Shown here: piece by piece, positions 17,802 to 41,874 of the stretch | Layout of the letters: each line of letters starts with the position of its first letter | How positions within the stretch are numbered: position 1 is the first letter of the stretch | Position numbers and translations under genes: made by a program | DNA from: Ensifer canadensis | GTDB taxonomy: Bacteria > Pseudomonadota > Alphaproteobacteria > Rhizobiales > Rhizobiaceae | Assembly: GCF_017488845.2 (NCBI RefSeq) | Contig: NZ_CP083371.1 | Location: 1,550,001-1,614,000, forward strand | DNA length: 64,000 bases | Reading direction: 5' to 3' | The notes under the pieces: generated by a model | What the model was told of the DNA's origin: nothing | Seen by the model: only the letters and a program-made list of their open reading frames with translations | Database searches by the model: none

Positions 17802-17826
17802 GGTAACTCCGTCTGAGGGAAGAGAA

Positions 17827-18882
17827 TTAGGCTTTGAGGGCTGCGAGGCGGACGAGCGAAATCGCCTCAACCGAACTCACCTTGCCGGTGGCCGCATTGA
17901 AACCGCTTGTGGATTGCGCCGTGACCAGCGAATTGAGGATCGCCTCTTCTGTCGCCTCGATCGTCGCCTCGAACAGCGGCGAGATCAGGTCGTTCGGCAG
18001 GTCGGGGTAGCTGGAGATCGCTGTGCGCCGCTCGCGCGTCCGGCGGACAGCTTCCGCGGTGGAGAATGCCAGCGCATAGTCGCCGGATCCATTGCTGAGG
18101 GCGGCACCGGTGCGGGAGAGGCCGCCAAAGGCGCGCTCGGCCAGCCGTTCGAGGCTGCGCGCCGACAACGGCGCGTCGGTGGCGACGACGATGACGATTG
18201 AGCCGTCGCGATCATGTCCCGACGGCGCATCATAGGGATGCCCGCAAATCAGCAGCCGGCCGCCATAATTGGACTGCACCAGCACGCCGACTGTGAAGGT
18301 TTCGCCTGCCGCCTTGACGCGGCGCGAACTGGTGCCGATCCCGCCCTTGAGACCGAAGGCCACCGTGCCGGTGCCGGCGCCGATGGCGCCCTCTTCGACC
18401 GGACCGGGCGCCGCCGCGGCAATTGCCTTGCCGATCTCATCGATCGTCGGGCGGCCGGCGCGGATATCGTTCAGTCTGGAGTCATTGGTCTCTCCGACGA
18501 CGGCGTTGAGCGACACAACCTTTTGGTTGCCCGGCTGGGCCAGCGTAAAACGGTTGATCGCCTCGATCGCCCGCCCGGTTGCGAGCGTATTGGTCAGAAC
18601 AACTGGCGTTTCGAGCTCGCCCAACTCGGCGATCTGGGTCGAACCTACGAATTTGCCGAAGCCGTTCAGGACCGCCAGCGCCGCCGGCACCTTGTCCTGA
18701 AACAGATTGCCCTGGTGGGGAAGGATAGCAGTCGCGCCCGTGCGGATCCTGTCGCCCTCGACCACAGTCGCGTGGCCAACGGCTACACCGGCAACGTCGG
18801 TAATCGCGTTCAACGAGCCGGTTTCATATACGCCTGGGCGGAATCCGAGGTCGCGAAGCCTTTGGCGCGTGTTTGCCGACAT
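17827..18882 (-). CDS. P1 family (DmpA-type) aminopeptidase
   Basis: 351 residues from the ATG at 18882. DmpA-like from end to end: ITDVAGVAVGHATV, VPAALAVLNGFGKFVG, VVLTNTLATGRA, VGVLVQSNYGGRLLICG, then DGSIVIVVATDAPLS. The autocleavage point of this family is Gly-Ser before a hydrophobic strand, here Gly227-Ser228; cleavage frees Ser228 as the N-terminal nucleophile and gives alpha and beta chains. DmpA of Ochrobactrum is an L-aminopeptidase and D-Ala esterase/amidase; relatives cleave beta-peptides. Next to the D-transaminase and opposite the D-aminopeptidase operon, it fits a D-peptide breakdown set. No signal peptide. Confidence 0.88.
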   Translation of the reverse strand: MSANTRQRLRDLGFRPGVYETGSLNAITDVAGVAVGHATVVEGDRIRTGATAILPHQGNLFQDKVPAALAVLNGFGKFVGSTQIAELGELETPVVLTNTLATGRAIEAINRFTLAQPGNQKVVSLNAVVGETNDSRLNDIRAGRPTIDEIGKAIAAAAPGPVEEGAIGAGTGTVAFGLKGGIGTSSRRVKAAGETFTVGVLVQSNYGGRLLICGHPYDAPSGHDRDGSIVIVVATDAPLSARSLERLAERAFGGLSRTGAALSNGSGDYALAFSTAEAVRRTRERRTAISSYPDLPNDLISPLFEATIEATEEAILNSLVTAQSTSGFNAATGKVSSVEAISLVRLAALKA

Positions 18883-27588: not shown

Positions 27589-28938
27589 GTGTTGAAGTTC
27601 CGTTTCGTCATTCTTGCGGCATTGCAACTGCTGGCTTTTGCCGGCCTCAGCATGCCCGTGATCGCTGCGCAGGCAGCCGAAAAACGGGACCTGGTGGTTG
27701 TCACCTCCTACCCGCCATCCTTTTTTGAGCCGTTTCGCCGGGCGTTCGAGAAGGCCAATCCCGATATCCGCACGTCGATCGTTCAGCGCAACACGGCAAG
27801 CGCGACGCGCTTCGTCATGGAGAAAGCCGATGTGCCGGCCGACATATTCTGGGCCTCGGCGACCGATGCTTTCGAACTCTTGAAGCGCAGCGGCGAACTG
27901 CGCCCGATTGCGCCGCGCCACACGGGCGCGGCTGAAAAAGTCTTCGGTTACCCGGTCAACGATCCCGAGGGTTACTATCTCGGCTTTGCGCTCTCCGGTT
28001 ACGGCTTCGTCTACAATCAGTCCTACCTCGCCCAGAACAAGCTGCCGGTGCCGCGGGACTGGCAGGACCTGCTGAACCCCATCTATTCCGGCCAGATCGG
28101 CATCACCACGCCGTCACGGTCGGGCACGACGCATCTGATCGTCGAGGCCTTGCTGCAGACCTATGGATGGGAAAAGGGCTGGGCGATGCTGTCCCAGCTC
28201 GGCGGCAATCTATCGACGGTTACCGCGCGCAGTTTCGGCGTTGCGTCCGGTGTCGCCCAAAGGCGCTTCAGCATCGGCATCACCATCGATTTCCTCGCCA
28301 ATGCGCCAGAATTCGCCGACGCCGGCAATGTGTTCATCCTGCCGCCCGATACCGTGTTCGTGCCGGCCAGCATCGCGATCCTCTCCCGGGCGCGCAATGT
28401 TTCCGCCGCCGAGCGCTTCATCGATTTCGTTCTGTCTGAAGACGGCCAGAAGGTGCTGTTGCTGCCCGCCGTCGCCCGCATTCCTCTCAACCCGGCGCTC
28501 AACAAGGGACTACTGCCCCAAGAGAGTGATGACGGCCTGTTGAAATACGGCGGTTTCGACGCGGCGTTGTCTGCTCGAAGGTACGGTCTCGTCAACCTGA
28601 TCTTCGACGACTATATCGTGCGCCGCCGGGCGACGCTTGCCCGGCTCTGGAAAAGGGTGACGGATCTGGAAGCGATCGAAATCGAGGACGCGCAGCAGCG
28701 CAGCACGCTTGCGAGAGCCCGGCGTCTGCTGGGCACGCCGCCGCTTTCGGCCAGCGATGTGGAAAACACCGACGAAGCCCTGAAGGCCGAGTGGCCGCGC
28801 AGCATTGCCCGCTCGCCGGCGCATACCGCACTGACGCAGCGGCTGCGCGCCACCATCGAGCGGAACCTGGCGACGGCCGAAATGCTGCTCTCCTCCGTCG
28901 GGCGACCGGCGACAGATCTGCAGCCATGGCGGCAGTGA
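27589..28938 (+). CDS. Periplasmic binding protein of a PgtC-like sensory system
   Basis: 449 residues from GTG 27589 (TTG 27592 is next). Signal peptide at 1-29 (FVILAALQLLAFAGLSMPVIAAQAA). The mature part is a Fe3+/thiamine-type family-1 binding protein: LVVVTSYPPSFFEPFRRAFE, PADIFWASATDAFELLK, PSRSGTTHLIVEALLQ, then TARSFGVASGVAQRRFSIGITIDF. The gene overlaps the histidine kinase gene and is a clear paralogue of the binding protein at 32342-33661. This arrangement (binding protein, kinase, sigma-54 activator) matches the PgtC-PgtB-PgtA phosphoglycerate regulatory set of Salmonella. I infer that it presents a ligand to the kinase and is not itself the transport receptor. Confidence 0.85.
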   Translation: MLKFRFVILAALQLLAFAGLSMPVIAAQAAEKRDLVVVTSYPPSFFEPFRRAFEKANPDIRTSIVQRNTASATRFVMEKADVPADIFWASATDAFELLKRSGELRPIAPRHTGAAEKVFGYPVNDPEGYYLGFALSGYGFVYNQSYLAQNKLPVPRDWQDLLNPIYSGQIGITTPSRSGTTHLIVEALLQTYGWEKGWAMLSQLGGNLSTVTARSFGVASGVAQRRFSIGITIDFLANAPEFADAGNVFILPPDTVFVPASIAILSRARNVSAAERFIDFVLSEDGQKVLLLPAVARIPLNPALNKGLLPQESDDGLLKYGGFDAALSARRYGLVNLIFDDYIVRRRATLARLWKRVTDLEAIEIEDAQQRSTLARARRLLGTPPLSASDVENTDEALKAEWPRSIARSPAHTALTQRLRATIERNLATAEMLLSSVGRPATDLQPWRQ

Positions 28939-30842
28939 TGGGCCAATCGTTAGACCCTGCTGCCGGGATGCGCCGCTGGCGCTTCGGCATCGGCGCGCGC
29001 CTGGTCCTTGCCTTCGTCGCGATCGTCGGCCTCGCCGTCGGCGCCTGCCTTGTCGGCTGGCTCTCCTACGAGCGTCTGTCCGGTGAACTGTCGCGGATCG
29101 CGGAAGACCAGATGCCGCAACTCGCCTTCGCCTCGAGACTGTCGAAGGCGGGTGCCGACATCGGTTCGGTGACGACGGTTCTCGCAGGCGCTGAGACACG
29201 TGCCGAGTACAACGAGATCCGCAGCAGCTACGCGGCGCGCCTGACCACACTGCGCTCGCTGCTTGGGGAAAGCGGCACAAAGTCGGATGCGACCGATCTG
29301 CTGCCGCTGGCGGAAGCGATCGGCGAAAACCTCGACAAGATCGACCTTGCCGCCGGCAAGCGCTTTACACTTCGCGAAGCGATGCGCTCCGATACCGACG
29401 AACTGCGGTGGGTCCAGGCCGATCTCCTCGAGGAGGCCGATCCGCTCGTCGACGACATTCGCTTCAACATCGAAGCCGAAACGCGCAACGGAAACGGGGC
29501 GGCCGCACTTGCTGAGCAGCAAAAGAGCGAGGCGCTGCTGACGGCCGTGTCGCAAGCGAACCTGGCAACCGGGCTGATCGGCCGGCTCGTCAACGCCACC
29601 ACGCAAGAGGAAATTCAGGAAACCAATGCCTTCCTCGGTGACAGCGCCGACGAACTCGCCAGCCGCATCGCCAGCCTCGATAACTGGCCTGATAGCATCA
29701 CCGTTCGCCAACTGGCACGCCGCATTCTCGACCAGTCCGACGTTCTGACGGGCATTCCCAACCGCAAGCGCTCGGAAATGATCGAGGCGGCAAAGCTCTC
29801 CGAACTTGCCGGCGAAAACGGCCGCCTCGTCGAGGACCTGGGGCGCCGGATCGAAACGGAAGTCGTGACGATCGAGGCCAGCGCCGCCGCCGCCGCCCAA
29901 CGGGCCGCTGCGGCTATCGAAACGGGGCGCAGCCTGCTCGTCGCCATCGCCATTCTTTCGGTGCTGCTCGCGTCTGCGATCGGCTTCTTCTACGTCTACC
30001 GCAATCTGCTCGCACGCATCCGGCTTCTTTCGGCAGCCGCCGGCGCGATCAGCAGCGGGCGTCCGGCAACCGCGATCCCCGCACCCGAGGCCGACGAGCT
30101 CGGCGATCTCGCCCATGCGCTGGTACTTTTCCGCCAGACGCGCGACGAGTTGATCCAGTCGGCAAAGCTCGCGGCTCTCGGGCAGATGGCGGCCGGCATC
30201 GGCCACGAGCTCAACCAGCCGCTGGCAGCCCTTCGGGCGCATATCCATAGCGCCACCACTCTGATCGGGCGAGACAAGGGCGATCAAGCATTGCTCAATC
30301 TCGACAAGATGAAGGGACTGACGGGGCGCATGGCCGACCAGATCAGCCATATCCGTCGCTTTGCCCGCCGGCCCGACGCGCAGCTGCGGCCCGTCGATCT
30401 CACCGCGGCGGTCCGCGACGCGCTCAGCCTGCTCGAACATCGGTTCGAGGAAGAGGCTGTCGAAATACAACTGCGCCTGCCGGAAGGCGCCGCAGTCCTT
30501 GTCATGGCCGAACCGGTGCGGCTCGAACAGGTGGCGGTCAATCTCATCGGCAACGCCTTGGATGCCGTTAAAGACAGGCCCGTTCGCCAGGTAAACGCAA
30601 TGATCGAAAGGGTCGGTACCGATGCCCGCCTTGTCGTCGGCGATAGCGGAACCGGTATTGCTGCTGCCGATGTCGGCGCGGTTTTCGATCCCTTCTTCAC
30701 CACCAAGCCGGTCGGTTCCGGCCTCGGACTTGGCCTCTCCATTTCCTACAACATCGTCAAGGATTTCGGTGGCGAGATATCGATCCTTGAAACCAGTGCG
30801 GACGGCACGCAATTCCTCGTATCCTTGAAAGGCCCGGAATGA
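28938..30842 (+). CDS. Sensor histidine kinase (PgtB-like)
   Basis: 634 residues from ATG 28938 (TGATG overlap with the previous gene; ATG 28926 and 28968 are alternatives). First membrane helix at about 19-42, a periplasmic helical domain at 43-330, second helix at 331-354, HAMP at about 350-403. The phospho-acceptor is His423 in GIGHELNQPLAALRAH; ATP-binding boxes are VNLIGNALDAV, VVGDSGTGIAA and FDPFFTTKPVGSGLGLGLSISY. The helical periplasmic domain could contact the adjacent binding protein. It should phosphorylate the next gene product, whose start overlaps this stop by four bases. Confidence 0.9.
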   Translation: MGQSLDPAAGMRRWRFGIGARLVLAFVAIVGLAVGACLVGWLSYERLSGELSRIAEDQMPQLAFASRLSKAGADIGSVTTVLAGAETRAEYNEIRSSYAARLTTLRSLLGESGTKSDATDLLPLAEAIGENLDKIDLAAGKRFTLREAMRSDTDELRWVQADLLEEADPLVDDIRFNIEAETRNGNGAAALAEQQKSEALLTAVSQANLATGLIGRLVNATTQEEIQETNAFLGDSADELASRIASLDNWPDSITVRQLARRILDQSDVLTGIPNRKRSEMIEAAKLSELAGENGRLVEDLGRRIETEVVTIEASAAAAAQRAAAAIETGRSLLVAIAILSVLLASAIGFFYVYRNLLARIRLLSAAAGAISSGRPATAIPAPEADELGDLAHALVLFRQTRDELIQSAKLAALGQMAAGIGHELNQPLAALRAHIHSATTLIGRDKGDQALLNLDKMKGLTGRMADQISHIRRFARRPDAQLRPVDLTAAVRDALSLLEHRFEEEAVEIQLRLPEGAAVLVMAEPVRLEQVAVNLIGNALDAVKDRPVRQVNAMIERVGTDARLVVGDSGTGIAAADVGAVFDPFFTTKPVGSGLGLGLSISYNIVKDFGGEISILETSADGTQFLVSLKGPE

Positions 30843-32179
30843 CGTTGGACCCGGATATCATCCTGATCGACGACGATGCCAGCGTGCTTGAAGCCTGCTG
30901 TCAGGTGCTCGAACTGGAAGACCTCAGCGTATCGCCGCACGGCTCGGTGACATCGGCGCTCGCCGGCCTTCGCGCCGACAGCCGCGCCGTTATCGTTTCC
31001 GACGTGCGCATGCCGGATCACGATGGCTTCGATCTGGTCGCCGCCGTGCGCAAGATCGACCAGGAGATCCCGATCATCCTGATGTCCGGGCACGGCGATA
31101 TCCCGATGGCGCTTCGCGCCATGCGCGACGGCGCCTGGGATTTTCTGGAGAAGCCCGCCGATCCGATGCATCTCATCGAAACCGTACGCCGCGCCCGCGA
31201 CCATCGCCGCCTGCTTCTCGAAAACCGGCGGCTGCGGCTGTCGGTGGACGACGACGGTTGGGAAACGCGCCTGATCGGACATTCCGGACCGATGGTTGCG
31301 CTGCGGGAGAAACTCAAGCGCATCGCGGCCGCGACAACCGACGCGCTCATCATCGGCGATACCGGCACAGGCAAGGAAGTGACGGCGCGCGCGCTGCACG
31401 ATTTCAGCGGGCGCAAGGGGCGTTTCGTCGCCGTCAATTGCGGCGCCATTCCCGAAACCATGCTGGAATCCGAACTCTTCGGCCATGAGGCCGGGGCCTT
31501 TACCGGTGCGCGCGAGAAGCGCATCGGCAAGATCGAGTATGCCGACGGTGGTACGCTGTTTCTCGACGAGATCGAATCGATGCCGCTTGCCGCCCAGGTG
31601 CGGCTGCTGCGCGTACTGCAGGAGCGCGTCATCGAACGGCTCGGCTCCAACGTCGAGCTGCCGGTTGACATGCGCGTCGTGGCGGCGACCAAGGCGGATC
31701 TGCATGCGGCGGCCAAAAAGGGCGATTTCCGTGAAGACCTTGCCTACCGCCTCGACATCGCCCGTGTGGAGCTGCCGTCACTGGCGCAACGCAAGGGCGA
31801 CGTCGGCCTCTTGTTCCAGCATTTCCTCGGCCTCGCCGCCAAACGACAGGGCCGCACCCCGCCGCGGGTGAGCGCCGAACTTCTGGCCGAACTCAATGGC
31901 AGGTCATGGCCGGGCAACGTTCGCGAACTGCGCAACGTCGCGGAGCGCTTCGTGCTCGGGCTTGAAGACCGCTCCGATATCGACCGGGCAGCGGCAGGCG
32001 GCGAGACGTTGGAGGTGCAGATGGACCGCCTCGAGCGCGCCATCCTTCTCGACAGCCTCGCCAGGCACGACGGCCGCGTCGGCGCGACGGCCGATGCGCT
32101 CGGCATCTCCCGCAAGACGCTCTACCTCAAGATGCGCAAATTCGATATTGCCGCCCAGGGCGATGGCGAAGCCGGCTGA
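30839..32179 (+). CDS. Sigma-54-dependent response regulator (PgtA/DctD-like)
   Basis: 446 residues. Receiver domain at 1-120 with acidic cluster Asp11-13, phospho-acceptor Asp55 (VSDVRMPDHDGFD) and Lys105 (FLEKPAD). AAA+ domain at about 143-375 with Walker A GDTGTGKE (173-180), the sigma-54 contact loop GAFTGA at 219-224 and Walker B GGTLFLDEIE. A Fis-type helix-turn-helix closes it (VGATADALGISRKTLYLKMRKF). It activates sigma-54 promoters; one matching consensus lies 93 bases after its stop codon, before an ABC importer. Confidence 0.93.
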   Translation: MTLDPDIILIDDDASVLEACCQVLELEDLSVSPHGSVTSALAGLRADSRAVIVSDVRMPDHDGFDLVAAVRKIDQEIPIILMSGHGDIPMALRAMRDGAWDFLEKPADPMHLIETVRRARDHRRLLLENRRLRLSVDDDGWETRLIGHSGPMVALREKLKRIAAATTDALIIGDTGTGKEVTARALHDFSGRKGRFVAVNCGAIPETMLESELFGHEAGAFTGAREKRIGKIEYADGGTLFLDEIESMPLAAQVRLLRVLQERVIERLGSNVELPVDMRVVAATKADLHAAAKKGDFREDLAYRLDIARVELPSLAQRKGDVGLLFQHFLGLAAKRQGRTPPRVSAELLAELNGRSWPGNVRELRNVAERFVLGLEDRSDIDRAAAGGETLEVQMDRLERAILLDSLARHDGRVGATADALGISRKTLYLKMRKFDIAAQGDGEAG

Positions 32180-32194
32180 TGTTACCGGTTTGAC
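32180..32194 (+). promoter_or_regulatory. Possible activator site, direct repeat copy 1
   Basis: TGTTACCGGTTTGAC starts at the base after the regulator stop codon. It matches the sequence at 32213-32227 at 12 of 15 positions, and the two starts are 33 bases apart, about three helical turns. It lies 78-92 bases before the -24 element, right for an upstream activator site. Confidence 0.45.
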
Positions 32195-32212
32195 CCCGTC
32201 CTTTTGCGAGGT

Positions 32213-32227
32213 TGTTACCTTTTTTAC
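32213..32227 (+). promoter_or_regulatory. Possible activator site, direct repeat copy 2
   Basis: TGTTACCTTTTTTAC, second copy of the repeat at 32180-32194. It is 45 bases before the sigma-54 -24 element. The even spacing favours binding of regulator dimers on one face of the helix. Confidence 0.45.
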
Positions 32228-32271
32228 CCATCAGCCGACAAAGAACTGCTGATTTCCGGCGGTTTTCAATC

Positions 32272-32286
32272 TGGCACGGTGCTTGC
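32272..32286 (+). promoter_or_regulatory. Sigma-54 (RpoN) promoter
   Basis: TGGCAC-GGTGC-TTGC matches the -24/-12 consensus TGGCAC-N5-TTGC at every position. Transcription would start near 32298, leaving a leader of about 44 bases before ATG 32342. It lies directly behind the gene for a sigma-54 activator and before the ABC importer operon. Confidence 0.88.
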
Positions 32287-32341
32287 TCTCAATAGATCGG
32301 ACACCAAACAAGCGGTGTCCCTATTGGGAGGAGATACCTAT

Positions 32342-33661
32342 ATGTTGAAGACCATTGCTGCGGCGATGCTGATGTCGGCTGCCTTCGTCGTGACGGTTTA
32401 CGCCCAGGACGGCGGGAAAGTCACGATCGTCACGTCGTTTTCCAAGGATGTGACCGATCCGTTCAAGGCGGGCTTCGAAGCGGCCAACCCCGGCTTCACC
32501 CTCGACGTCCAGAACAAGAGCACGAGCTCGGGCGTCAAATACATCGATGAAACCAAGGTGAACAACCAGGTCGACCTGTTCTGGGCATCGGCCCCGGACG
32601 CATTCGACAGCCTCAAGAGCCGCGAGCTGCTCGCCAAGTTCACGCCTTCGGTCACCGGCCTTCCTGAAAAGGTCGGCTCCTACCCCGTCAACGACAAGGA
32701 CGGCTATTACTTCGGCTTTGCCGCCTCCGGTTACGGCATTATGTCGAACGATCGCTATCTCGAAGCCAACGATCTGCCGAAGCCGGTCGAGTGGAGCGAC
32801 CTGACCAAGCCCGAATACCACGATCACATCGCGATTGCTGCGCCCTCGCGTTCGGGCACGACCCACCTGACGATCGAGACGATCCTGCAGGGCGAAGGCT
32901 GGGACAAGGGCTGGGCGACGCTGAAGGGTATCGGCGGCAACCTGCAGCAGGTCACCGAGCGTTCGTTCGGCGTTCCTGACGCGGTCAACTCCGGCCAGAC
33001 CGGCATCGGCATCGTCATCGACTTCTTCGCCTTCTCGGCACAGGCAAGCGGCTTCCCTGTCAGCTTCGCCTACCCGTCGGTCACGACGGTCGTTCCGGCC
33101 AATATCGGCATCGTTGCCAATGCGCCGAACCAGGCCGGTGCTGAAGCCTTCGTCAACTACCTGCTTTCGGAAAAGGGCCAGGCCGTTCTGCTCGAACCGG
33201 CGATCCGTCGTCTGCCGATCAACCCGGCCCTCTACGAAAAGGCACCGGAAGGCTTCCCGAATCCCTACAAGGATCCGCGCTTCCAGTCGATGATCACGTT
33301 CGATTCCGACGTTTCGAAGAAGCGCACCGACGTCGTCGACACGCTCTACGATCAGCTGATCTCGTTCCAGCTCGACAACATCAAGGGCGCCACCAAGGCG
33401 ATCCACGAAGCCGAAAAGGCAGTTGCCGCCAACGAACAGGCTCCCGCACGCGCTTTGCTGACGGAAGCCCACGCGCTGATCGCGGCCATGCCGATCACTG
33501 CCGACGAAGCTGCCAGCCAGCAGATCCGCGACGCCTTCACCGGCGGCGAGGAAAAGACCGCCCGCCAGGCGGAACTCGAGCAGAAATGGGCCGCCTTTGC
33601 GACCGAGAAGTACGCCGCCGCCAAGGCCAAGGCCGAGGAAGCGCTGGCTCTCGTCGACTGA
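32342..33661 (+). CDS. ABC transporter substrate-binding protein (Fe3+/PgtC-type family)
   Basis: 439 residues from ATG 32342 with a strong GGGAGGAG eight bases upstream. Signal peptide 1-21 (LKTIAAAMLMSAAFVVTVYAQ). Shares TSFSKDVTDPFKAGFEAANPG, VDLFWASAPDAFD, APSRSGTTHLTIETILQ and ERSFGVPDAV with the sensory binding protein at 27589, but not the C-terminal half to the same degree. It carries a long helical C terminus rich in Ala, Glu and Lys. It is the transport receptor, expressed from the sigma-54 promoter. A hairpin follows at 33676-33697. Iron is a possible ligand by family, but the regulatory genes point to an organic anion such as a phosphorylated C3 compound. Confidence 0.9.
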   Translation: MLKTIAAAMLMSAAFVVTVYAQDGGKVTIVTSFSKDVTDPFKAGFEAANPGFTLDVQNKSTSSGVKYIDETKVNNQVDLFWASAPDAFDSLKSRELLAKFTPSVTGLPEKVGSYPVNDKDGYYFGFAASGYGIMSNDRYLEANDLPKPVEWSDLTKPEYHDHIAIAAPSRSGTTHLTIETILQGEGWDKGWATLKGIGGNLQQVTERSFGVPDAVNSGQTGIGIVIDFFAFSAQASGFPVSFAYPSVTTVVPANIGIVANAPNQAGAEAFVNYLLSEKGQAVLLEPAIRRLPINPALYEKAPEGFPNPYKDPRFQSMITFDSDVSKKRTDVVDTLYDQLISFQLDNIKGATKAIHEAEKAVAANEQAPARALLTEAHALIAAMPITADEAASQQIRDAFTGGEEKTARQAELEQKWAAFATEKYAAAKAKAEEALALVD

Positions 33662-33675
33662 CGCCGGCTTAAAAA

Positions 33676-33697
33676 GCCGCCTGCCCCGGCGGGCGGC
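33676..33697 (+). terminator. Intercistronic hairpin after binding-protein gene
   Basis: GCCGCCTGCC and GGCGGGCGGC form a ten-base near-perfect stem (one G-T pair) with almost no loop, so the real loop is probably four to six bases. No T-run follows. Together with the 217-base gap before the permease it suggests mRNA processing or partial termination that favours the binding protein. Confidence 0.5.
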
Positions 33698-33878
33698 CAT
33701 CCCCGAAAACCATGCCTTCGCCAAGCCTGACGCGCCTGCCGGTCGGCTCTCAGTGATCCGAACCGATCATGAAGCAACCGCGCAGCAGCCGACAGCGTTG
33801 CTGCGACCCCAGCGATCCAGAGGCGCAGGGGCGCCGCAAGCGCGTCAGGCTTGTCGACCAAAATCCGGAGTCTGCCTC

Positions 33879-35588
33879 ATGGCGCTCGTTCAATCCATTC
33901 CCATAAGACGCGTTTCGGCCAAGCCCGGACAGATCTTTGCGATCTCGCTGATCGCGCTTTTCCTCGCCATCTTCCTGGTCATCCCGGCCGGTACGGTGAT
34001 CTACACCGCCTTCACCGAAAAGGGCACCGGCGCGTTGACGATCGTCAACTTTGTCGACTTCTTCAACACCGATCTGTTCCGGCGGTCGTTCTTCAACTCC
34101 GTCTACGTCTCCGGCATGTCGGTGGTCTGGGCAAGCGCCATCGCGCTGCCGCTCGCGGTTTTGACCACGCGCTTCGACTTCCGCGGCTCGCTGATCATCC
34201 AGACGCTCGGCTTCGTGCCGCTGATCATGCCGCCATTCGTCGGTGCGGTCGCCATGCAGCTGCTGTTCGGCCGCAACGGCACCGTCAACCTCATCCTGAA
34301 TGACTGGTTCGGCATCCGCATTCCCTTCATGGAAGGCCTGAACGGCGTCATCTTCGTGCAGTCGCTGCACTATTTCCCCTTCATCCTCATCAATCTGTCG
34401 ACCAGCCTGCGCAACATCGACCGCTCGATGGAAGAAGCAGCCCAGAACCTCGGCTCGTCCGGCTTCCGGCTGTTCCGCCGCGTCGTCTTCCCGCTGGCAA
34501 TGCCCGGCTATCTCGCCGGCGCTTCGCTGGTCTTCGTCAAGGTCTTCGACGACCTGGCAACGCCGCTGCTTCTCAACGTCAAGGACATGCTGGCGCCCCA
34601 GGCTTACCTCCGCGTCACTTCGGTCGGCCTCACCGATCCGATGGGCTATGTCATCTCGGTCATCCTCATCACCGTCTCGATCTTCGCCATGTGGCTGTCA
34701 GCGATCGCTATGCGCGGCAAGGACTATTCGACGACGCAGCGCGGCGGCGGTGGTCTTTCCCGTCGCAAGCTGAGCCGCGGTGAGAGCGTCATAGCCTATG
34801 GCGTCGTCGGCCTGATCCTGCTGCTCGTGCTGTCGCCGCATATCGGCTTGCTTCTGCTGTCGCTTGCAACCGTGTGGTCGTTCAGCCCGTTGCCGGACGC
34901 CTATACGGTCGCGCACTACGGCCGCGTCTTCGGCGAAAGCTCGCTCTACATCAAGAACACGCTGATCTACGCCAGCCTCGCCGGCCTGATCGACGTGGTC
35001 ATCGGTGGCGCCATCGCCTATCTCGTGCTGCGAACCAAGGTCGTCGGCCGTCGCTGGCTCGACTGGGCGGCAACCGCCGCACTCGCCATCCCCGGCGTCG
35101 TGCTCGGCATCGGCTACCTCCGCACCTTCTACGGCATCACGCTGCCGGATGGTACGCCGCTTGCGACGCTCTGGGTCATGGTGGTGCTGGCACTCGCCAT
35201 CCGTCGTCTGCCCTACGCGCTCAGAGCCTGCTACGCCGCATTGCAGCAGGTGTCGGAATCGCTGGAGGAGGCCGCCGAAAACCTCGGCGCCACCAAGCAG
35301 CGAACGATCCGGCGCATTGTCCTGCCTTTGATGACGGGTGGTCTGCTCGCCGGCTTCGTCACCAGCTTTTCGACGGCCGCCGTCGAACTGTCGGCAACCC
35401 TGATGCTGATCCAGAGCAACTCGGACGCACCGATCGCCTACGGGCTCTACGTCTTCATGCAATCGCCGGCGGGTCGTGGCCCGGGTGCAGCCCTCGGCGT
35501 CATCGCCGTCATCATGGTCGCACTCTGCACCCTGCTCTCGCACTACGTCATCGAGCGGCGCCAGAAGGCGCTCGGCATGACGAAATAG
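33879..35588 (+). CDS. ABC transporter permease, fused two-domain (FbpB/SfuB type)
   Basis: 569 residues from ATG 33879 (GGAG eight bases upstream), with about 12 membrane segments in two halves, each with its own ATPase-contact loop: SMEEAAQNLGSSGFRLFRRVVFPLAMPG at about residues 185-212 and SLEEAAENLGATKQRTIRRIVLPLMTGG at about 465-492. Such fused permeases serve iron(III), thiamine and phosphonate-like importers. It is the membrane part of the sigma-54-driven transporter; the ATPase gene starts 18 bases later. Confidence 0.92.
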   Translation: MALVQSIPIRRVSAKPGQIFAISLIALFLAIFLVIPAGTVIYTAFTEKGTGALTIVNFVDFFNTDLFRRSFFNSVYVSGMSVVWASAIALPLAVLTTRFDFRGSLIIQTLGFVPLIMPPFVGAVAMQLLFGRNGTVNLILNDWFGIRIPFMEGLNGVIFVQSLHYFPFILINLSTSLRNIDRSMEEAAQNLGSSGFRLFRRVVFPLAMPGYLAGASLVFVKVFDDLATPLLLNVKDMLAPQAYLRVTSVGLTDPMGYVISVILITVSIFAMWLSAIAMRGKDYSTTQRGGGGLSRRKLSRGESVIAYGVVGLILLLVLSPHIGLLLLSLATVWSFSPLPDAYTVAHYGRVFGESSLYIKNTLIYASLAGLIDVVIGGAIAYLVLRTKVVGRRWLDWAATAALAIPGVVLGIGYLRTFYGITLPDGTPLATLWVMVVLALAIRRLPYALRACYAALQQVSESLEEAAENLGATKQRTIRRIVLPLMTGGLLAGFVTSFSTAAVELSATLMLIQSNSDAPIAYGLYVFMQSPAGRGPGAALGVIAVIMVALCTLLSHYVIERRQKALGMTK

Positions 35589-35606
35589 AAACTCGGGAGG
35601 AACACT

Positions 35607-36707
35607 ATGACTGTCAACATCAACAGCGCAGCGCTCGCGGTTAGCCCCGCCAAGGCGATCAGCATCAGCGACGTCAATCTCTACTACGGCGCGCTCCACG
35701 TGCTGAAGGATATCAACCTGGAGATCCAACCGGGCGAGTTCTTCGCCTTTCTCGGCCCGTCCGGCTGCGGCAAGACCACGCTTCTCAGGCTGATCGCCGG
35801 CTTCAACAATGCCCGGCAGGGCAAGGTCGTCATCGGCGGCCAGGACGTGCTCGACATGCCGCCGTGGAAGCGGGACATCGGCATGGTCTTCCAGTCCTAC
35901 GCGCTCTGGCCGCATATGACGGTGGCCGCCAATGTTGCCTTCGGCCTGGAAGAGCGTCGCCTGCCGCGCGCGGAGGTCGAACGCCGGGTCCAGGCGGCAC
36001 TCGAACTCGTCGGGCTGAAACATCTCGCCGATCGCCGCCCGTCGCAGCTCTCCGGCGGACAGCAGCAGCGCGTCGCACTTGCCCGCACCATCGCAATCGA
36101 ACCGAAGGTGCTTCTGCTCGACGAGCCGCTCTCCAACCTCGACGCCAAGATGCGCGTCGAAGTCCGGCGGGAGCTGCGCGACCTGCAGCAGCGGCTGAAG
36201 TTGACGACGATCTTCGTCACCCACGATCAGGAGGAGGCCAACACCGTCTGCGACCGTATCGCCGTCTTCAATGAAGGGCGCATCCAGCAGGTGGGAACGC
36301 CGATGGGCCTCTATGAGAAGCCCGCCAACCTGTTCGTCGCCAACTTCCTCGGCACCGCCAACATCCTTGACGGCACCGTCTCGGGTTCCGGCACGCAGCG
36401 CACGTTCGAGGTTGCAGGCGCCGGCACGATCCCGATCCCGGCAGGGGCGTCGGTACCGGCGGGCGCCAAGCTCGTCTTCCGGCCGCAATATGCGACGCTC
36501 GCCACGCTGGAGCCGGGTGCCGTCGCCTTGACCGGCACGATCGCGCATCGCGAATTCCTGGGCGCCACCGTCCGCTACGGCGTGCAGGTCGGAACGGCCA
36601 CGGTGCTGATCGACGCACCGTTCCATTCCGGCGGCTCTCTGCTAGAGACCGGAGCCACGACGACACTCGGCCTCAAGCCGTCCTCGGCGCTTTGGCTTGC
36701 CGAGTAA
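35607..36707 (+). CDS. ABC transporter ATP-binding protein (FbpC/PotA-like)
   Basis: 366 residues from ATG 35607, with GGGAGG seven to eight bases upstream. Walker A GPSGCGKTT, Q-loop VFQSYALWPHMTV, signature LSGGQQQR, Walker [12 protein letters not shown] and switch His in VTHDQEEANTV. The C-terminal about 110 residues form a TOBE regulatory domain. Last gene of the sigma-54 operon; a strong terminator follows. Confidence 0.92.
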   Translation: MTVNINSAALAVSPAKAISISDVNLYYGALHVLKDINLEIQPGEFFAFLGPSGCGKTTLLRLIAGFNNARQGKVVIGGQDVLDMPPWKRDIGMVFQSYALWPHMTVAANVAFGLEERRLPRAEVERRVQAALELVGLKHLADRRPSQLSGGQQQRVALARTIAIEPKVLLLDEPLSNLDAKMRVEVRRELRDLQQRLKLTTIFVTHDQEEANTVCDRIAVFNEGRIQQVGTPMGLYEKPANLFVANFLGTANILDGTVSGSGTQRTFEVAGAGTIPIPAGASVPAGAKLVFRPQYATLATLEPGAVALTGTIAHREFLGATVRYGVQVGTATVLIDAPFHSGGSLLETGATTTLGLKPSSALWLAE

Positions 36708-36716
36708 GCAACCAGG

Positions 36717-36760
36717 CACCCGCCGGCCGTCGGTCGGCGGGTGTCCTTCTTTCTTTTTTT
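36717..36760 (+). terminator. Rho-independent terminator
   Basis: Stem CACCCGCCG / CGGCGGGTG (36717-36743) with a small loop that can pair further, followed directly by a T-rich tract with seven T at its end. It closes the sigma-54 transporter operon ten bases after its last stop codon. Confidence 0.88.
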
Positions 36761-36798: not shown

Positions 36799-37458
36799 AT
36801 GACCTCCCATTTGCCAAACATCATCCTCATCCGCCACGGCGAAACCCAATGGAATGTCGCCGGTCGGCTGCAAGGCCGAAAGGACACGCCGTTGACGGCA
36901 AACGGTGTCCGGCAGGCGCTCGCCGTCGGGCTGCGGCTGGCGGAAAGAATTGCCGGCGAGACGAAACTCAAATTCTGGGTTAGCCCGCTTGGGCGCGCGC
37001 GCCAGACGGCGTCGATCCTTGCCGACACATGGTCTGTTCCCTTCGAGCAATTCACCCATGACGAGGCACTGGTGGAAAGGGCCTACGGCTCCTGGGAAGG
37101 GCGCGCGCACGATGAGATCGAGAGGGATCTCGCGCACGAATATGAGGCGCATAGCGCCGAACCGTGGGATTACGCCATGCCCGGCGGCGAAAGCCGCACC
37201 ACGCTCGACGGCCGCCTGCTCGCCTGGCTCGCCACCCTCGACCACGAGAATACACACGTGGTGGTGACCCATAGCGGCTGCGTGCGCGCCCTGCGCGGCA
37301 TCTATACCAAGGCGTCCCGCGAAGAGATCCTCGCCTACCGCGAACCGCAAACGGCCTCGTTCCTGCTTTCGACCGGCCATGAAACCATGATCGGCATTCC
37401 GCTCAGCATTCTGCGCGCACTCGGCTGCGAAGGCGAGGGCCGAACCGTCTGGATCTGA
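36799..37458 (+). CDS. Histidine phosphatase / phosphoglycerate mutase-like protein
   Basis: 219 residues from ATG 36799. Catalytic LIRHGETQWNVAGRLQGRKDTPLT at residues 9-32 with the RHG motif, then SPLGRARQTASIL, EALVERAYGSWEGRAHDEIE and the second catalytic His in VVVTHSGCVRALRG. The family includes 2,3-bisphosphoglycerate-dependent mutases and broad phosphatases; this size suits a phosphatase. It lies beyond a terminator, so it has its own transcript, but its place next to a Pgt-like sensory system may be meaningful. Confidence 0.85.
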   Translation: MTSHLPNIILIRHGETQWNVAGRLQGRKDTPLTANGVRQALAVGLRLAERIAGETKLKFWVSPLGRARQTASILADTWSVPFEQFTHDEALVERAYGSWEGRAHDEIERDLAHEYEAHSAEPWDYAMPGGESRTTLDGRLLAWLATLDHENTHVVVTHSGCVRALRGIYTKASREEILAYREPQTASFLLSTGHETMIGIPLSILRALGCEGEGRTVWI

Positions 37459-37553: not shown

Positions 37554-39338
37554 CTAGATGACGACCAGCCCTGACGAGCAAACCGTCATGTTCCGCCCCC
37601 GCGCCTTGGCGTCGAGCAAGGCGGCATCGGCCCGCGTCAGAAGCGTCGCGACCGTGCCTTCGCGTGGCGACGAGGCAATACCGATCGACACGGACACGGA
37701 GCCGAGGATGCGTCCGCGGTGAGAAAGCGGCGTCGTGCCGATCTTGTCGCGCAGGCGCTCGGCGAATTCAAAGCCCGCCGCCTCGCTCATTTCGGGCAGC
37801 AGCATCGTGAACTCCTCGCCACCGAAACGATAGGTCGCGCCCAGCTCGCCGGCCGCGTCGAGCATGATCTGGGCAACATACTGCATCACCACATCGCCGG
37901 CGTCGTGGCCGAACTCGTCGTTGAAGCGTTTGAAGTGATCAATGTCGATCATGAGGCAAACGAGCGGCCGGCCGGCCCGCTCCCGCAATTGCTTGTTCAG
38001 CGCTTCGTCGAGGCAGCGCCGGTTGAGCAGCCCCGTCAATGCGTCGCGGACCGCCAGGTTGGTCAGTTTTTCGCGCAGCTGTAGGTTGGCCACAGCCAGG
38101 CCGATATTTTCCGCGATCAGCTCGAGATAAAGCCGCGACGTCTCGACGGCCGGCTGCTCGGGCGAGCGTTCCTCGAAATAGAGCAGACCGATCGTATCGC
38201 CCTGAGCGGTCAGCGGCACGCACAGTCCAGCGACATCGCTCTCGTCCAGATGCTGGCAGGCAATATCGCCCTGCCCGCCATTGCTGACATGCGGCCGGCC
38301 GCGGCGAAGCCCCCAGCAGGCACTGGAAGGGAAAGTATCGGCCGAATGTTGCGGGTCGAGCCAGGTGCCGACACGCGTCAGCGACGTGCGGTTATCGTTC
38401 AGCACATAGAGATGACCGGCAAGGTTGGGGAAGATCTGCGGTGCGAACCGGGCTACGACCTCGGCCAGTTCTTCCTGGATCTGGCACGCCTGCAGCCGAT
38501 GCATCATTTGCAGGATGAGGTCCTTGGTCTGCTGATCCAGTCGGCGCTCTGCATCGAGCCGGTCCCGCTCCAGCCCGTTGGTGCGAAAGATATGGATCGC
38601 CTCGTTCATCTCGCCGATCTCGTCGCGGCGGCGGTCGAGCGGAACTTCCACGTCGTAATCCTGCTTGGCAAGCCGCGTCACGATGCCCGTCATGCGCACC
38701 AGCGGCATGGCCACGCGCCGCTTGAGCACGAAATAAAGGACACCGAGGAAGAGCGCCGCAGTCATGGCGAGCATCGTCTTGGCGGCGATGGCGAACCAGT
38801 CGCTTCGCTCCTTTGCCTGCTCCAGTGCCGCGCCGGTTCTGGCCTTGGTCAGTTCGCGGAAGCGGACCACCGTTTCAAGCAACGCCGTCTGCAGACGGTC
38901 GTGCTCCGGACCGAAGAGCATTTGTTGCGCTTTTGCCTGGTCGCCCTCCTGGTAGGCGGCGATCGCCGAAACCTCGATCTTGTCGAGGGCCTCTACCTCG
39001 CGCTCGACCTCCTGAAGTGCCGCCAACTCGGCCGGTGACGCCCCAACCTCCCGCACGTTCTTGATCGCCGCCTCGTGAGCGCGCTCTTCCTCTTCCCTGC
39101 CATGGAAGCGTTCGAGATGGCGCAGGTCGCCGCGCATCACGTACAGACGGGCAGCATCGCTCCGTTCCTCAGCGCCGAGCGCAAGATCTTCGCCAAGCGT
39201 GTCGAGCACAAGATGCTGCTCGGCCGCCTGCCGCTCCTCGATCGCGCTGTTCGTCGACAGGATGAACGCTACACCGGAAAGTCCGGTCAAAAGGACCGTG
39301 ACCCCGTAGGCCCAGTTTGTAATCGCATTGATTCTCAT
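37554..39338 (-). CDS. Diguanylate cyclase with HAMP and GAF-like domains
   Basis: 594 residues from the ATG at 39338. Membrane helix 8-28, a periplasmic helical sensor region with a four-helix-bundle look at 30-180, second helix 182-205, HAMP 206-258, GAF-like domain about 280-420, GGDEF domain 425-590 with active-site GGEEF at 506-510. The product-inhibition RxxD site normally nine residues before the GG is absent (Gly497 and Gly500 occupy those positions). It should make cyclic di-GMP from two GTP. Longer starts at 39377 and 39401 exist but none has a ribosome site, and 39401 would be pressed against a long hairpin. Confidence 0.88.
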   Translation of the reverse strand: MRINAITNWAYGVTVLLTGLSGVAFILSTNSAIEERQAAEQHLVLDTLGEDLALGAEERSDAARLYVMRGDLRHLERFHGREEEERAHEAAIKNVREVGASPAELAALQEVEREVEALDKIEVSAIAAYQEGDQAKAQQMLFGPEHDRLQTALLETVVRFRELTKARTGAALEQAKERSDWFAIAAKTMLAMTAALFLGVLYFVLKRRVAMPLVRMTGIVTRLAKQDYDVEVPLDRRRDEIGEMNEAIHIFRTNGLERDRLDAERRLDQQTKDLILQMMHRLQACQIQEELAEVVARFAPQIFPNLAGHLYVLNDNRTSLTRVGTWLDPQHSADTFPSSACWGLRRGRPHVSNGGQGDIACQHLDESDVAGLCVPLTAQGDTIGLLYFEERSPEQPAVETSRLYLELIAENIGLAVANLQLREKLTNLAVRDALTGLLNRRCLDEALNKQLRERAGRPLVCLMIDIDHFKRFNDEFGHDAGDVVMQYVAQIMLDAAGELGATYRFGGEEFTMLLPEMSEAAGFEFAERLRDKIGTTPLSHRGRILGSVSVSIGIASSPREGTVATLLTRADAALLDAKARGRNMTVCSSGLVVI

Positions 39339-39410
39339 GGGATGATCTATAGCCGATGGCGACGGAATAGCCGACATTGGAAAGCGCAGCGAGCGACGCA
39401 TTTGCCAGAA

Positions 39411-39484: not shown

Positions 39485-41695
39485 TTACCATTTCTTGCTG
39501 AGCTTCAGGGTCAGCGTGCGGCTTTCGCCGTAGCCGCACACCGAAAGCCCCTGGCACCCCTTCACATATTCCTTGTCGAAGAGATTGGAGACGTTGAGCG
39601 ATGCCGCCCAATCGTCCTTCTCGTAGCGAATTGCCGCATCGACCAATGCGGCCGAGGGCACTTTGCGCGTGTTCTCCGCATCCGCCCAGGATTCCCCCTG
39701 GTATCTGACGCCGGCGCCAAGGCTGACCCCCTCGAGCGCTCCTGAAGGCACGGTATAGTCGAGCCACAGCGACGCCTGAGCGTTGGGAACAAGGTACGGC
39801 GTCTTTCCCACCAACGCCGTGTTCGCGTCTTCGGTCACCTCGAGATCCATGAAATCAAGACCGGCGATCAGCTTCCAATCTTCGTTGATATTGGCCTTGC
39901 CCTCAAACTCGATGCCGCGGGAACGCACCTCACCCGTCTGGGTGGAAATGCTCGTCAACGGGTCGGTCACGAGAGCATTGCGCTTGGTCAACTGATAGAG
40001 TGATGCCGTCAACACGCCGTCGAATAACGTCGGCTCGTATTTGACCCCGACTTCGAACTGTTCACCTTCCTGCGGCTTGGTATTGCCTGTTGCTGTCACC
40101 GCGACGATCGGGTTGAAGAAGGTCGCGACGCTGACATATGGGGTCAGGCCATTGTCGAACTCATAGGCAAGGCCAGCGCGGCCGCTGAAAGCGCCTTCGT
40201 TGTAGCTGAAGGCGTTATTTTGCGTCGGAGCCCAGAAGGTCGGGCCGTTTTTGGTGTTGGTGTCCACGTAATCGTAGCGACCATTGAGCGTGACGAGCCA
40301 GCCCTGACCGAACCTGATCTGATCCTGCGCATAAACGCCCAGCTGCTGCTGCGTAACCACCTGATTGATATAGGTGGCGTTTGCGGGCTGCGGCGCACCA
40401 TAGATCGGATCCGTTGCGCTGATGGGTGTAGCGGCCGACGAAGCCTGCACATGGTCCAGCCGGTAGTACTTGTAGTCCAGGCCAACGAGCAGCGTATGAT
40501 CCAGTGCCCCGGTTTCGAATTCTCCTTCGACACGGTTGTCGACGGCGAAGGTATCGACCTTCGATGTCGCCTCAAACCCCAGACGATAAAGGAGATTGTC
40601 GGGGGTGGCCGGCACTGTCGACGACGGGAAGGGCAGGCTCGGATCGTAGTAACCGAAGGTATATGGGCCGTTCTCATGCTTGTAGAGATGGCCGTACCGC
40701 AGGTTCTGGCTAAACTGCCAACCGCCTTCAAACTCGTGCGTGAATTCATAGCCGATCATCTGCTGGACATAGGTGCCCGTATCCAGATCCGGCTCACCAT
40801 AAAATGCATCGCGGTCGATCTTACCGAAGGGTGCATCGACGACCGTGCCGACATAAGGCAGGAAGCCGTTGCCGACGTGCACCTGGTCGAGGCCCTGTAG
40901 AACACCGTAGACCGTCAGGCTTGTCGCATCATCAGGCGCGTAGGTGATCTGCGGCAGGACGAAGCCGCGCAGATCGTTGGAGAAATCGGTGTAGGTATCG
41001 CCGCCCGACATCTTGCCGGTGACGCGATACCGGATGGTGCCATCGTCCGTCAGCTTGTCGTTGACATCGAAGCCGGTGAAGGCATTGCCAAAGTTGTTGA
41101 TGCCGATCTCGGTATAATAGAGCGGTTCATCGAATGGCCGCTTGCTGATCAGGCTGACGATACCGCCTGCGTTGGCGCCGCCGTAGAGCGCCGAGGCGGG
41201 CCCCTTCAGCACTTCGACCCGCTCGAGCATGAAGGGGTCGATTTGAAAACCGCCGAAACCAAAGCTGAAAAGCGTCAGACCATCGAGGAACACGCCGGTC
41301 TGCGTCGCGTCGAAACCGCGGATGTAGTACCAATCCGTATCCGCATCGGTGCCGAAAGGCTCCGTCGTCACACCCGGCGTGTAGCGCAGGGCCTCATCGA
41401 CCTTGTTGACCACGCCGCGGTCGTCGAGCTCATCGCGACCGATGACGGAGACGGATTGGGGAATTTCGCTGATCGGCGTGGCCGACTTCGAGCCCGTCGT
41501 CGTCGCCTTGGCGACGTAACCGTCAACGGGGCCGGTGGCCTCGTCGCGTAAGCCCTGTGCCTGCACCTCGATCTTTTCGAGTTTCGTGGCGATACCGTCC
41601 TGGGCGACCGCCGCCGTCGACACGAGCAAGGCGATACCGGCAACGCCACTCGCAAGGAATTTTCTCAAACGCACACTTTCACCATCACGCTGCAT
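39485..41695 (-). CDS. TonB-dependent siderophore receptor (FhuA/FoxA-like)
   Basis: 736 residues from the ATG at 41695. Signal peptide to about residue 33 (GIALLVSTAAVAQ), then a TonB-box-like KLEKIEVQAQG. Plug domain: SEIPQSVSVIGRDELDDRG, ALRYTPGVTTEPFG, YYIRGFDATQTGVFLDGL, RVEVLKGPASALYGGANAGGIVSL, all typical of TIGR01783-type siderophore receptors. A 22-strand barrel follows and ends with an aromatic (LKLSKKW), as outer-membrane barrels do. It takes up a ferric hydroxamate-type siderophore with TonB; the ligand is not certain. GTG 41674 is an alternative start. The AraC regulator upstream in the same direction probably controls it. Confidence 0.9.
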   Translation of the reverse strand: MQRDGESVRLRKFLASGVAGIALLVSTAAVAQDGIATKLEKIEVQAQGLRDEATGPVDGYVAKATTTGSKSATPISEIPQSVSVIGRDELDDRGVVNKVDEALRYTPGVTTEPFGTDADTDWYYIRGFDATQTGVFLDGLTLFSFGFGGFQIDPFMLERVEVLKGPASALYGGANAGGIVSLISKRPFDEPLYYTEIGINNFGNAFTGFDVNDKLTDDGTIRYRVTGKMSGGDTYTDFSNDLRGFVLPQITYAPDDATSLTVYGVLQGLDQVHVGNGFLPYVGTVVDAPFGKIDRDAFYGEPDLDTGTYVQQMIGYEFTHEFEGGWQFSQNLRYGHLYKHENGPYTFGYYDPSLPFPSSTVPATPDNLLYRLGFEATSKVDTFAVDNRVEGEFETGALDHTLLVGLDYKYYRLDHVQASSAATPISATDPIYGAPQPANATYINQVVTQQQLGVYAQDQIRFGQGWLVTLNGRYDYVDTNTKNGPTFWAPTQNNAFSYNEGAFSGRAGLAYEFDNGLTPYVSVATFFNPIVAVTATGNTKPQEGEQFEVGVKYEPTLFDGVLTASLYQLTKRNALVTDPLTSISTQTGEVRSRGIEFEGKANINEDWKLIAGLDFMDLEVTEDANTALVGKTPYLVPNAQASLWLDYTVPSGALEGVSLGAGVRYQGESWADAENTRKVPSAALVDAAIRYEKDDWAASLNVSNLFDKEYVKGCQGLSVCGYGESRTLTLKLSKKW

Positions 41696-41761
41696 CGTAT
41701 CGTCGCCCTTTGATGCCGGACCCGCCATCCCCACGACGTGCGGCCCGACTTTCTGACTGCT

Positions 41762-41780
41762 GATAAGATGACCGTTTATC
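41762..41780. promoter_or_regulatory. Inverted repeat before the receptor gene, candidate operator
   Basis: GATAA-N9-TTATC within an AT-richer stretch about 70 bases before the receptor start. It could be a target for the adjacent AraC regulator or for an iron regulator. It does not match a textbook Fur box, and I see no clear iron-responsive operator. Confidence 0.3.
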
Positions 41781-41874
41781 TCAACTATTAGGACGGGGCT
41801 TGTTTCGAACCCTGAAAGTTGAACGCTCTTGGGCAAATGTGTGCGGGCAACTGTTCAAGGCTGAAGGCATTTGC

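Follow-up and report, generated by a model that had tools for sequence, protein, structure and literature searches.

The six genes at positions 27589 to 36707 of a 64,000-nucleotide stretch of Ensifer canadensis DNA (contig NZ_CP083371.1, positions 1,550,001 to 1,614,000 of the forward strand, in a genome of 8.09 Mb; the whole stretch is hereafter called the window) probably form a self-contained unit for the sensing and import of a small phosphorylated organic acid, working by the mechanism set out below. On the comparative evidence, the sensing and wiring of the circuit appear well supported and the class of ligand moderately so; an exact ligand is not supported.

All six genes are on the plus strand. 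The first (27589–28938; GTG start, 449 amino acids) encodes a sensor solute-binding protein (SBP1; PF13343, PgtC-related) with a C-terminal helical extension, which is 93–94% identical to that of the closest Ensifer strains. The second (28938–30842; 634 amino acids), whose ATG shares one base with the SBP1 stop (TGATG), encodes a histidine kinase with an all-helical periplasmic TorS-like sensor domain, HAMP, HisKA and HATPase domains, as read from Pfam, NCBIfam and fold comparisons. The third (30839–32179; 446 amino acids) overlaps the kinase end (ATGA) and encodes an NtrC-type response regulator with a receiver domain (Asp55), a sigma-54 AAA+ domain having Walker A and B motifs and GAFTGA at residues 219–224, and a Fis-type helix-turn-helix, i.e., the features of a sigma-54 activator. 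They are followed by a transport solute-binding protein (SBP2; 32342–33661), a paralogue of SBP1 with 41% identity over the matched part, whose start was taken as the ATG at 32342 in preference to the upstream TTG at 32204, by a fused double-domain ATP-binding cassette (ABC) permease (33879–35588; 569 amino acids, two BPD_transp_1 stretches) and by an ABC ATPase (35607–36707; Pfam, NCBIfam). The Pfam assignments agree with the gene-by-gene reading, and both parts of the preliminary description, namely three overlapping genes for a binding protein, a kinase with a helical domain and a sigma-54 activator with Asp55 and GAFTGA, and a −24/−12 promoter before a binding protein, a fused permease and an ATPase, were borne out by the reading, the translations and Pfam. 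In the many soil and plant-associated bacteria that carry this cassette, annotations of its genes go no further than "extracellular solute-binding protein", "iron ABC transporter permease" or "ATP-binding protein".

The predicted sigma-54 −24/−12 promoter lies between the activator and SBP2 genes at 32271–32287 on the plus strand (CTGGCACGGTGCTTGCT; also read as TGGCACGGTGCTTGCT at 32272–32287). The exact pattern TGGCACGNNNNTTGCW occurred eight times in the genome, against three times for the reversed control. Among 70 named loci with an activator and SBP2, a site scoring at least 15 of 17 was present in the 450 bp after the activator in 62, each of which was equalled by no more than 1% of 200 shuffled sequences; in five further loci no SBP2 was scored beside the activator. 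In five of the eight misses (L076, L138, L139, L140 and L147) Asd-AspT genes intervene and a 17-of-17 site stands directly before SBP2, while the other three were L077, where the contact loop of the activator is lost, L141 (14.0) and L150 (14.5). The importer of L191 is at a contig end and its promoter could not be scored. Because of the excess in the genome, the 62 loci and the five displaced sites, the promoter match at this locus is judged, from conservation, not to be due to chance.

Two copies of a putative operator of the form ATGTTACC-N4-TGACCCAT stand upstream of the promoter on the plus strand, the first at 32179–32198 (ATGTTACCGGTTTGACCCCG) and the second at 32212–32231 (TTGTTACCTTTTTTACCCAT), 33 bp downstream of the first. 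The half ATGTTACC was found by word counting, being present in 24 of 30 genus labels against at most five in five shuffles. Of 63 promoters, that of the window included, 61 had one copy or more and 58 had two or more, as compared with averages of 17.2 and 2.2 over 20 shuffles, and 56 of the 67 distances between neighbouring copies were 32–34 bp; many of the loci in these promoter and operator counts are close kin and the counts are not independent. Moreover, the operator pair with a 17-of-17 promoter also stands before SBP2 in seven loci where other genes split the importer from the sensors (two Aminobacter records, in which about 11 kb part the importer from the activator, and five Azospirillum-type loci that carry the Asd-AspT insertion), and these importers were outside the set from which the operator had been derived. 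Searches with the operator pattern placed at the importer two of two matches in an Aminobacter plasmid record, two of five in a second Aminobacter genome and two of three in one Azospirillum genome, with none for the reversed controls. In the window genome the pattern matched four times, twice at this locus, and its reversed control matched twice, so this may be the single promoter that the activator serves. The locus L130 speaks against the proposed wiring: the sensor set is present there, and neither an operator match nor a permease was found in its genome at the limits used. Operators and promoter are thus marked by their conservation, and the activator would bind the former and activate transcription from the latter.

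Of 297 genomes of the order, 25, the window genome among them, have an SBP1 homologue at E 1e-30; some of these 25 have only the importer. The order SBP1-kinase-activator-SBP2-permease-ATPase repeats in the neighbourhoods fetched, and the six genes look like a unit because this order recurs while the flanks differ. The set occurs in many alphaproteobacteria, outside the order for example in Azospirillum, Paracoccus denitrificans and L250 of the same class; some Azospirillum strains have the Asd-AspT genes inserted in the cassette. Importer-only loci (e.g., L053, L061, L144, L155 and L156) had no sensor set within the stretch examined. In Aminobacter, SBP1 stays with the kinase and the activator, apart from the importer; a link of these sensors with the GntR, ectoine-transport or catabolic genes beside them was rejected, as the neighbours differ between genomes. 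A link with TRAP transporters, considered because a similar kinase/regulator pair adjoins TRAP genes in L054–L056, was also rejected: trees, which took in L054 and L055, group the pair with the DctBD-like paralogues of the window genome, and these loci are therefore left out of the cassette counts (the names TRAP and DctBD are readings of the translations).

In the proposed mechanism, SBP1 would bind the ligand in the periplasm and, as the fold and the gene pairing suggest, would then dock on the kinase at its TorS-like helical domain. The kinase would phosphorylate the activator, which would bind both operators (32179–32231) and drive the sigma-54 promoter at 32271. The output of SBP2, permease and ATPase would thereby rise and the same ligand would be imported; one ligand for both tasks is assumed because the paralogues SBP1 and SBP2 share binding-loop motifs. 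Once imported, the ligand could be used by the phosphatase linked to the cassette or by the pyruvate kinase that some genomes have there. By fold comparison of the model, the sensor domain of the kinase is best matched by that of TorS, which, according to PDB titles, was solved also with its binding protein TorT. The kinase could instead sense the ligand directly, SBP1 being a mere spare transport protein. The TorS fold scores do overlap with those of the domain of the chemoreceptor McpS (16.8), which binds ligand itself, and the solved structures of related helical domains, those of McpS, contain malate and succinate. However, TorS is still the best fold, the SBP1 gene overlaps the kinase gene, and SBP1 accompanies the sensors and not the importer in Aminobacter, so that direct sensing appears very improbable and sensing through SBP1 is preferred.

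The sensor-domain profile scored 118.8 bits with PgtB; five other kinases tried from the window genome gave no match. Searched genome-wide at E 1e-15, it matched in 65 of 385 genomes of the class and 38 of 398 of the phylum, and only four of 55 loci sampled from these matches (about 1.5 kb on each side, at most 30 per search) carried a PgtC-type binding protein, two of these being cassettes already known. A match of the sensor domain was consequently rejected as proof of kinship with Pgt, as it marks a broad TorS-like superfamily. The window genome encodes another kinase whose sensor domain is TorS-like, at C2:672304–673485.

The closest folds to the SBP1 model (pLDDT 88.2) were AfuA, VcA0625 and P5PA (ranks 1–6), with iron-binding proteins of the same superfamily close behind. 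AfuA and P5PA bind phosphate esters (PMC4546632, PMC8427247), as does VcA0625 according to its PDB title. The phosphate loop of AfuA, Ser148-Gly149-Thr150 (numbered as in PMC8427247), aligns with Ser178-Gly179-Thr180 of SBP1 by way of SBP2 and the SBP1/SBP2 alignment. The loop is thus retained in both binding proteins, each of them a relative of PgtC. Arg177 and Arg214 were invariant in 26 SBP1 sequences and their equivalents in 24 SBP2 sequences, and both arginines are retained in PgtC. It is possible, though somewhat unlikely, that the same circuit serves another phosphate ester or a phosphonate, such as a sugar phosphate, pyridoxal 5'-phosphate or an aminoalkyl phosphonate. The nearest solved folds, AfuA (hexose phosphates) and P5PA, would suit this, as would the nearest NCBIfam names of the binding proteins, which are those of 2-aminoethylphosphonate proteins, the PdxH-like gene adjoining the Paracoccus importer, and a PhnD-type binding protein gene beside the Bosea-type cassette L111 (18723–20270, confirmed by a family scan; similar genes stand near L120 and L121). 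However, neither alignment of SBP2 with AfuA-type chains places a His opposite the sugar-contacting His205 of AfuA (the positions matching Asp206 and Glu229 vary with the alignment used), and every 2-aminoethylphosphonate model (TIGR03261/03262/03265) was missed, the binding proteins scoring 129.5 and 112.7 and the other two proteins 152.5 and 383 bits against cut-offs of 392.75, 593.25 and 457.7. In addition, the enzymes encoded next to the importer, pyruvate kinase and phosphoglycolate-phosphatase-like proteins, point to small phospho-acids.

A small phosphorylated organic acid, of the phosphoglycerate, phosphoenolpyruvate (PEP) or phosphoglycolate kind, is the most likely ligand, as read from the neighbouring phosphatases and pyruvate kinase. 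Of the 81 loci with enough sequence, 39 have a same-strand gene for a histidine phosphatase, a HAD phosphatase or a pyruvate kinase in the 1.5 kb after the ATPase (39 of 77 distinct loci, as L044, L045, L046 and L049 repeat L094, L128, L131 and L150, none with an enzyme match; 17 of 48 by label). Elsewhere in these loci, over about 1,515 kb, the same queries gave a single match; the count is weighted by Ensifer, Microvirga and Azospirillum. Pyruvate kinase was above the TIGR01064 cut-off in both proteins scanned, and a gene for it comes after the importer in two loci not counted among the 81 as well, those of Devosia and Paenochrobactrum. A HAD protein of Microvirga was above the phosphoglycolate phosphatase cut-off (TIGR01449) and one of L060 just below it. 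In the window, the neighbour is a histidine phosphatase superfamily gene (36799–37458, plus strand), which recurs beside the importer in other genomes; its product was above no NCBIfam cut-off, the best name being alpha-ribazole phosphatase, followed by phosphoserine-phosphatase and phosphoglycerate-mutase models. The phosphorylated acid suggested in the preliminary description thus gains support from these phosphatase and pyruvate-kinase genes.

Several observations weigh against a phosphorylated acid. PgtC has Ser-Asp-Thr instead of Ser-Gly-Thr, and L249, a locus from another class of the same phylum, has Gln at the position of Arg177. The enzyme queries were chosen because they recurred beside the importer, so the count indicates linkage and is not an unbiased survey; 42 of the 81 loci, including every scored Bosea and Ancylobacter, lack such an adjacent enzyme; and a terminator-like hairpin (36715–36745, plus strand, 3' of the importer operon) stands between ATPase and phosphatase gene in the window. 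The PdxH-like gene of Paracoccus, the Asd-AspT genes between activator and SBP2 in Azospirillum-type loci, and the TTT transporter which follows the sensor set in two genomes (L047 and L048) are of the same bearing. TTT transporters are known for plain carboxylates. With the TTT-linked sensor sets, the Asd-AspT insertion and the carboxylate also present on PgtP-type substrates, the ligand could be read as a plain carboxylate and the phosphatases as incidental. Such a ligand is nevertheless improbable in view of the 39 loci with an adjacent enzyme against a single match elsewhere and of the retained phosphate-binding Ser-Gly-Thr loop, and a small phospho-acid is favoured.

The PgtC-B-A proteins of Salmonella respond to 3-phosphoglycerate and PgtP imports phosphoglycerates and PEP, according to PMC11077982 and PMC10715179. 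PgtC scored 243.5 bits against the SBP1 profile over positions 13–404 and 198.6 against the SBP2 profile, as compared with 59.5 and 86.4 for an AfuA-type protein, and by this score and the motifs shared in alignments SBP1 is a PgtC-type sensor binding protein. The best NCBIfam match of the kinase was the PgtB model NF047794, at 209.9 bits far below the cut-off of 1000, and the activator scored 285.1 bits against the PgtA model NF047793, seventh in its list and below the cut-off of 650. Because both family cut-offs were missed, the cassette is, on these comparisons, a relative of Pgt and not a member of it; its target is an ABC importer and not a PgtP-type antiporter. The PgtA proteins of E. 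coli and Klebsiella, the two checked, lack GAFTGA, the Walker A lysine and the Walker B acids, and the GAFTGA loop is also missing in the Paracoccus activator and the L249 regulator. No −24/−12 site over 13 of 17 was found by pgtP or in Paracoccus.

Both E. coli and Klebsiella have, in their pgtP-pgtC region, a dyad ATGnGnCA-N4-YGACnCAW whose frame is that of the window operators, the two copies differing at symmetrical positions; Paracoccus has such a dyad too, in the region where one was expected. The pattern is partly post hoc, having been formulated on E. coli, L060, Paracoccus and L134, which are no test of it; it was then found in Klebsiella (close kin of E. coli), L051 and L052, and every occurrence in the 2.63 Mb searched was within these seven regulatory regions (L033, L039 and L041 repeat L060, L052 and L051). 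A strict match was absent from the TTT loci and from L249–L252, and L057 had neither form. The operator matrix derived from the window reached no significance in E. coli (59 of 200 shuffles as good), Klebsiella (81), L060 (57) or L131 (65).

In L047 and L048 the TTT genes (TctC and TctA by Pfam) have −24/−12 sites of 17 and 16 of 17, and in L249 a PgtP-like gene, under the model cut-off, stands beside a relative of the sensors. The same sensor type is, judging from the adjacent genes, joined to three transporter classes, since sensor sets adjoin ABC, TTT or PgtP-like genes. The kinship of the sensory cassette with Pgt that had been proposed is supported by the PgtC score against that of the AfuA-type protein, by PgtB as the best name of the kinase and by the dyad in the shared frame. 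The further proposal that the cassette was rewired to an ABC importer holds as far as the target is concerned; a Pgt-first order is unsupported, as the ABC/sigma-54 form is intact here, enteric PgtA is degenerate, and PgtA and PgtB, on very long branches (4.26 and 6.53), were not placed by the trees (the kinase tree being a quick search). A tentative joint reading, to which we give somewhat less than an even chance, is that the phosphoglycerate three-component system is older in the form of the intact sigma-54/ABC cassette of alphaproteobacteria and that its sensor module was joined successively to ABC, TTT and PgtP-type transporters; enteric PgtA would be a relic that lost the sigma-54 machinery and kept the operator frame, and the importer would be the first ABC system known for phosphoglycerate or PEP. 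The comparison also bears on the Salmonella literature, where a recent paper supposes that a portion of PgtA contacts sigma-54 (PMC11077982), since the contact loop and the ATPase motifs are missing in the PgtA proteins checked, those of E. coli and Klebsiella.

Further features were observed around these loci. A leader hairpin, GGACACC-N8-GGTGTCC, is predicted at 32299–32320 (plus strand), 3' of the promoter; it is predicted in Ensifer and near kin (the window and equivalents in L074–L101), with arms varying in sequence among related genera, and is weak or absent in Azospirillum and L157. Downstream of the phosphatase gene, a GGDEF-type protein (37554–39401) and a TonB-dependent receptor (39485–41836), both read from translations, lie on the minus strand. 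In L250, a methylisocitrate lyase gene (17643–18608; TIGR02317 over cut-off) comes after the phosphatase gene that follows the importer. On plasmid 1 of Paracoccus denitrificans PD1222 (L077, 910–7229), the stretch immediately before the Pgt-like set encodes a second AfuA-type importer together with an inositol monophosphatase, AphA and a regulator of the RpiR type. In L251 and L252 (same phylum, another class), the kinase and NtrC-type activator are about 47% identical to those of the window; a PhnD-type ABC importer with a −24/−12 site of 15.5 stands directly next in L251, and a similar importer a few kb away in L252. These two loci are possibly a phosphonate relative of the circuit.

The analysis defines a testable circuit (ligand class, two operators, promoter and target) for a cassette of many soil and plant-associated bacteria, and suggests a route for the direct uptake of phosphorylated acids without extracellular dephosphorylation. 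In a literature search covering titles and the openings of abstracts, with most subscription papers outside it, no ABC importer for phosphoglycerate or PEP and no sigma-54 form of Pgt was found.

Among known systems, HptA-HptS-HptR of S. aureus, GltB-GtrS-GltR of P. aeruginosa and CuaD of R. cellulolyticum resemble the cassette, as far as their available descriptions go, in that a binding protein feeds a two-component system governing uptake; they differ in ligand or phylum. We know of no sigma-54 promoter in these three systems. TorT-TorS, compared by PDB titles, is alike in the fold of the kinase sensor domain and in the pairing with a binding protein. However, the NCBIfam name of TorS marks it as a hybrid kinase, which the window kinase is not. 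The binding protein and the response regulator of the TorT-TorS system are also of other types than here. AfuABC, a hexose- and heptose-phosphate ABC importer (PMC4546632), shares the binding-protein fold, the Ser-Gly-Thr loop and the importer type, while in the window the sugar-binding His205 is not retained, a C-terminal helical extension is present, and a sigma-54 three-component set stands in front of the importer. Pgt of Salmonella and E. coli, as described in PMC11077982 and PMC10715179, is alike in the gene order and components of the sensor set, the PgtC-type binding protein, the NtrC-derived regulator and a dyad in similar frame near the target. In contrast to Pgt, the activator of the window keeps GAFTGA and the Walker motifs, and the cassette has a −24/−12 promoter and, as its target, an ABC importer with a binding protein of its own.
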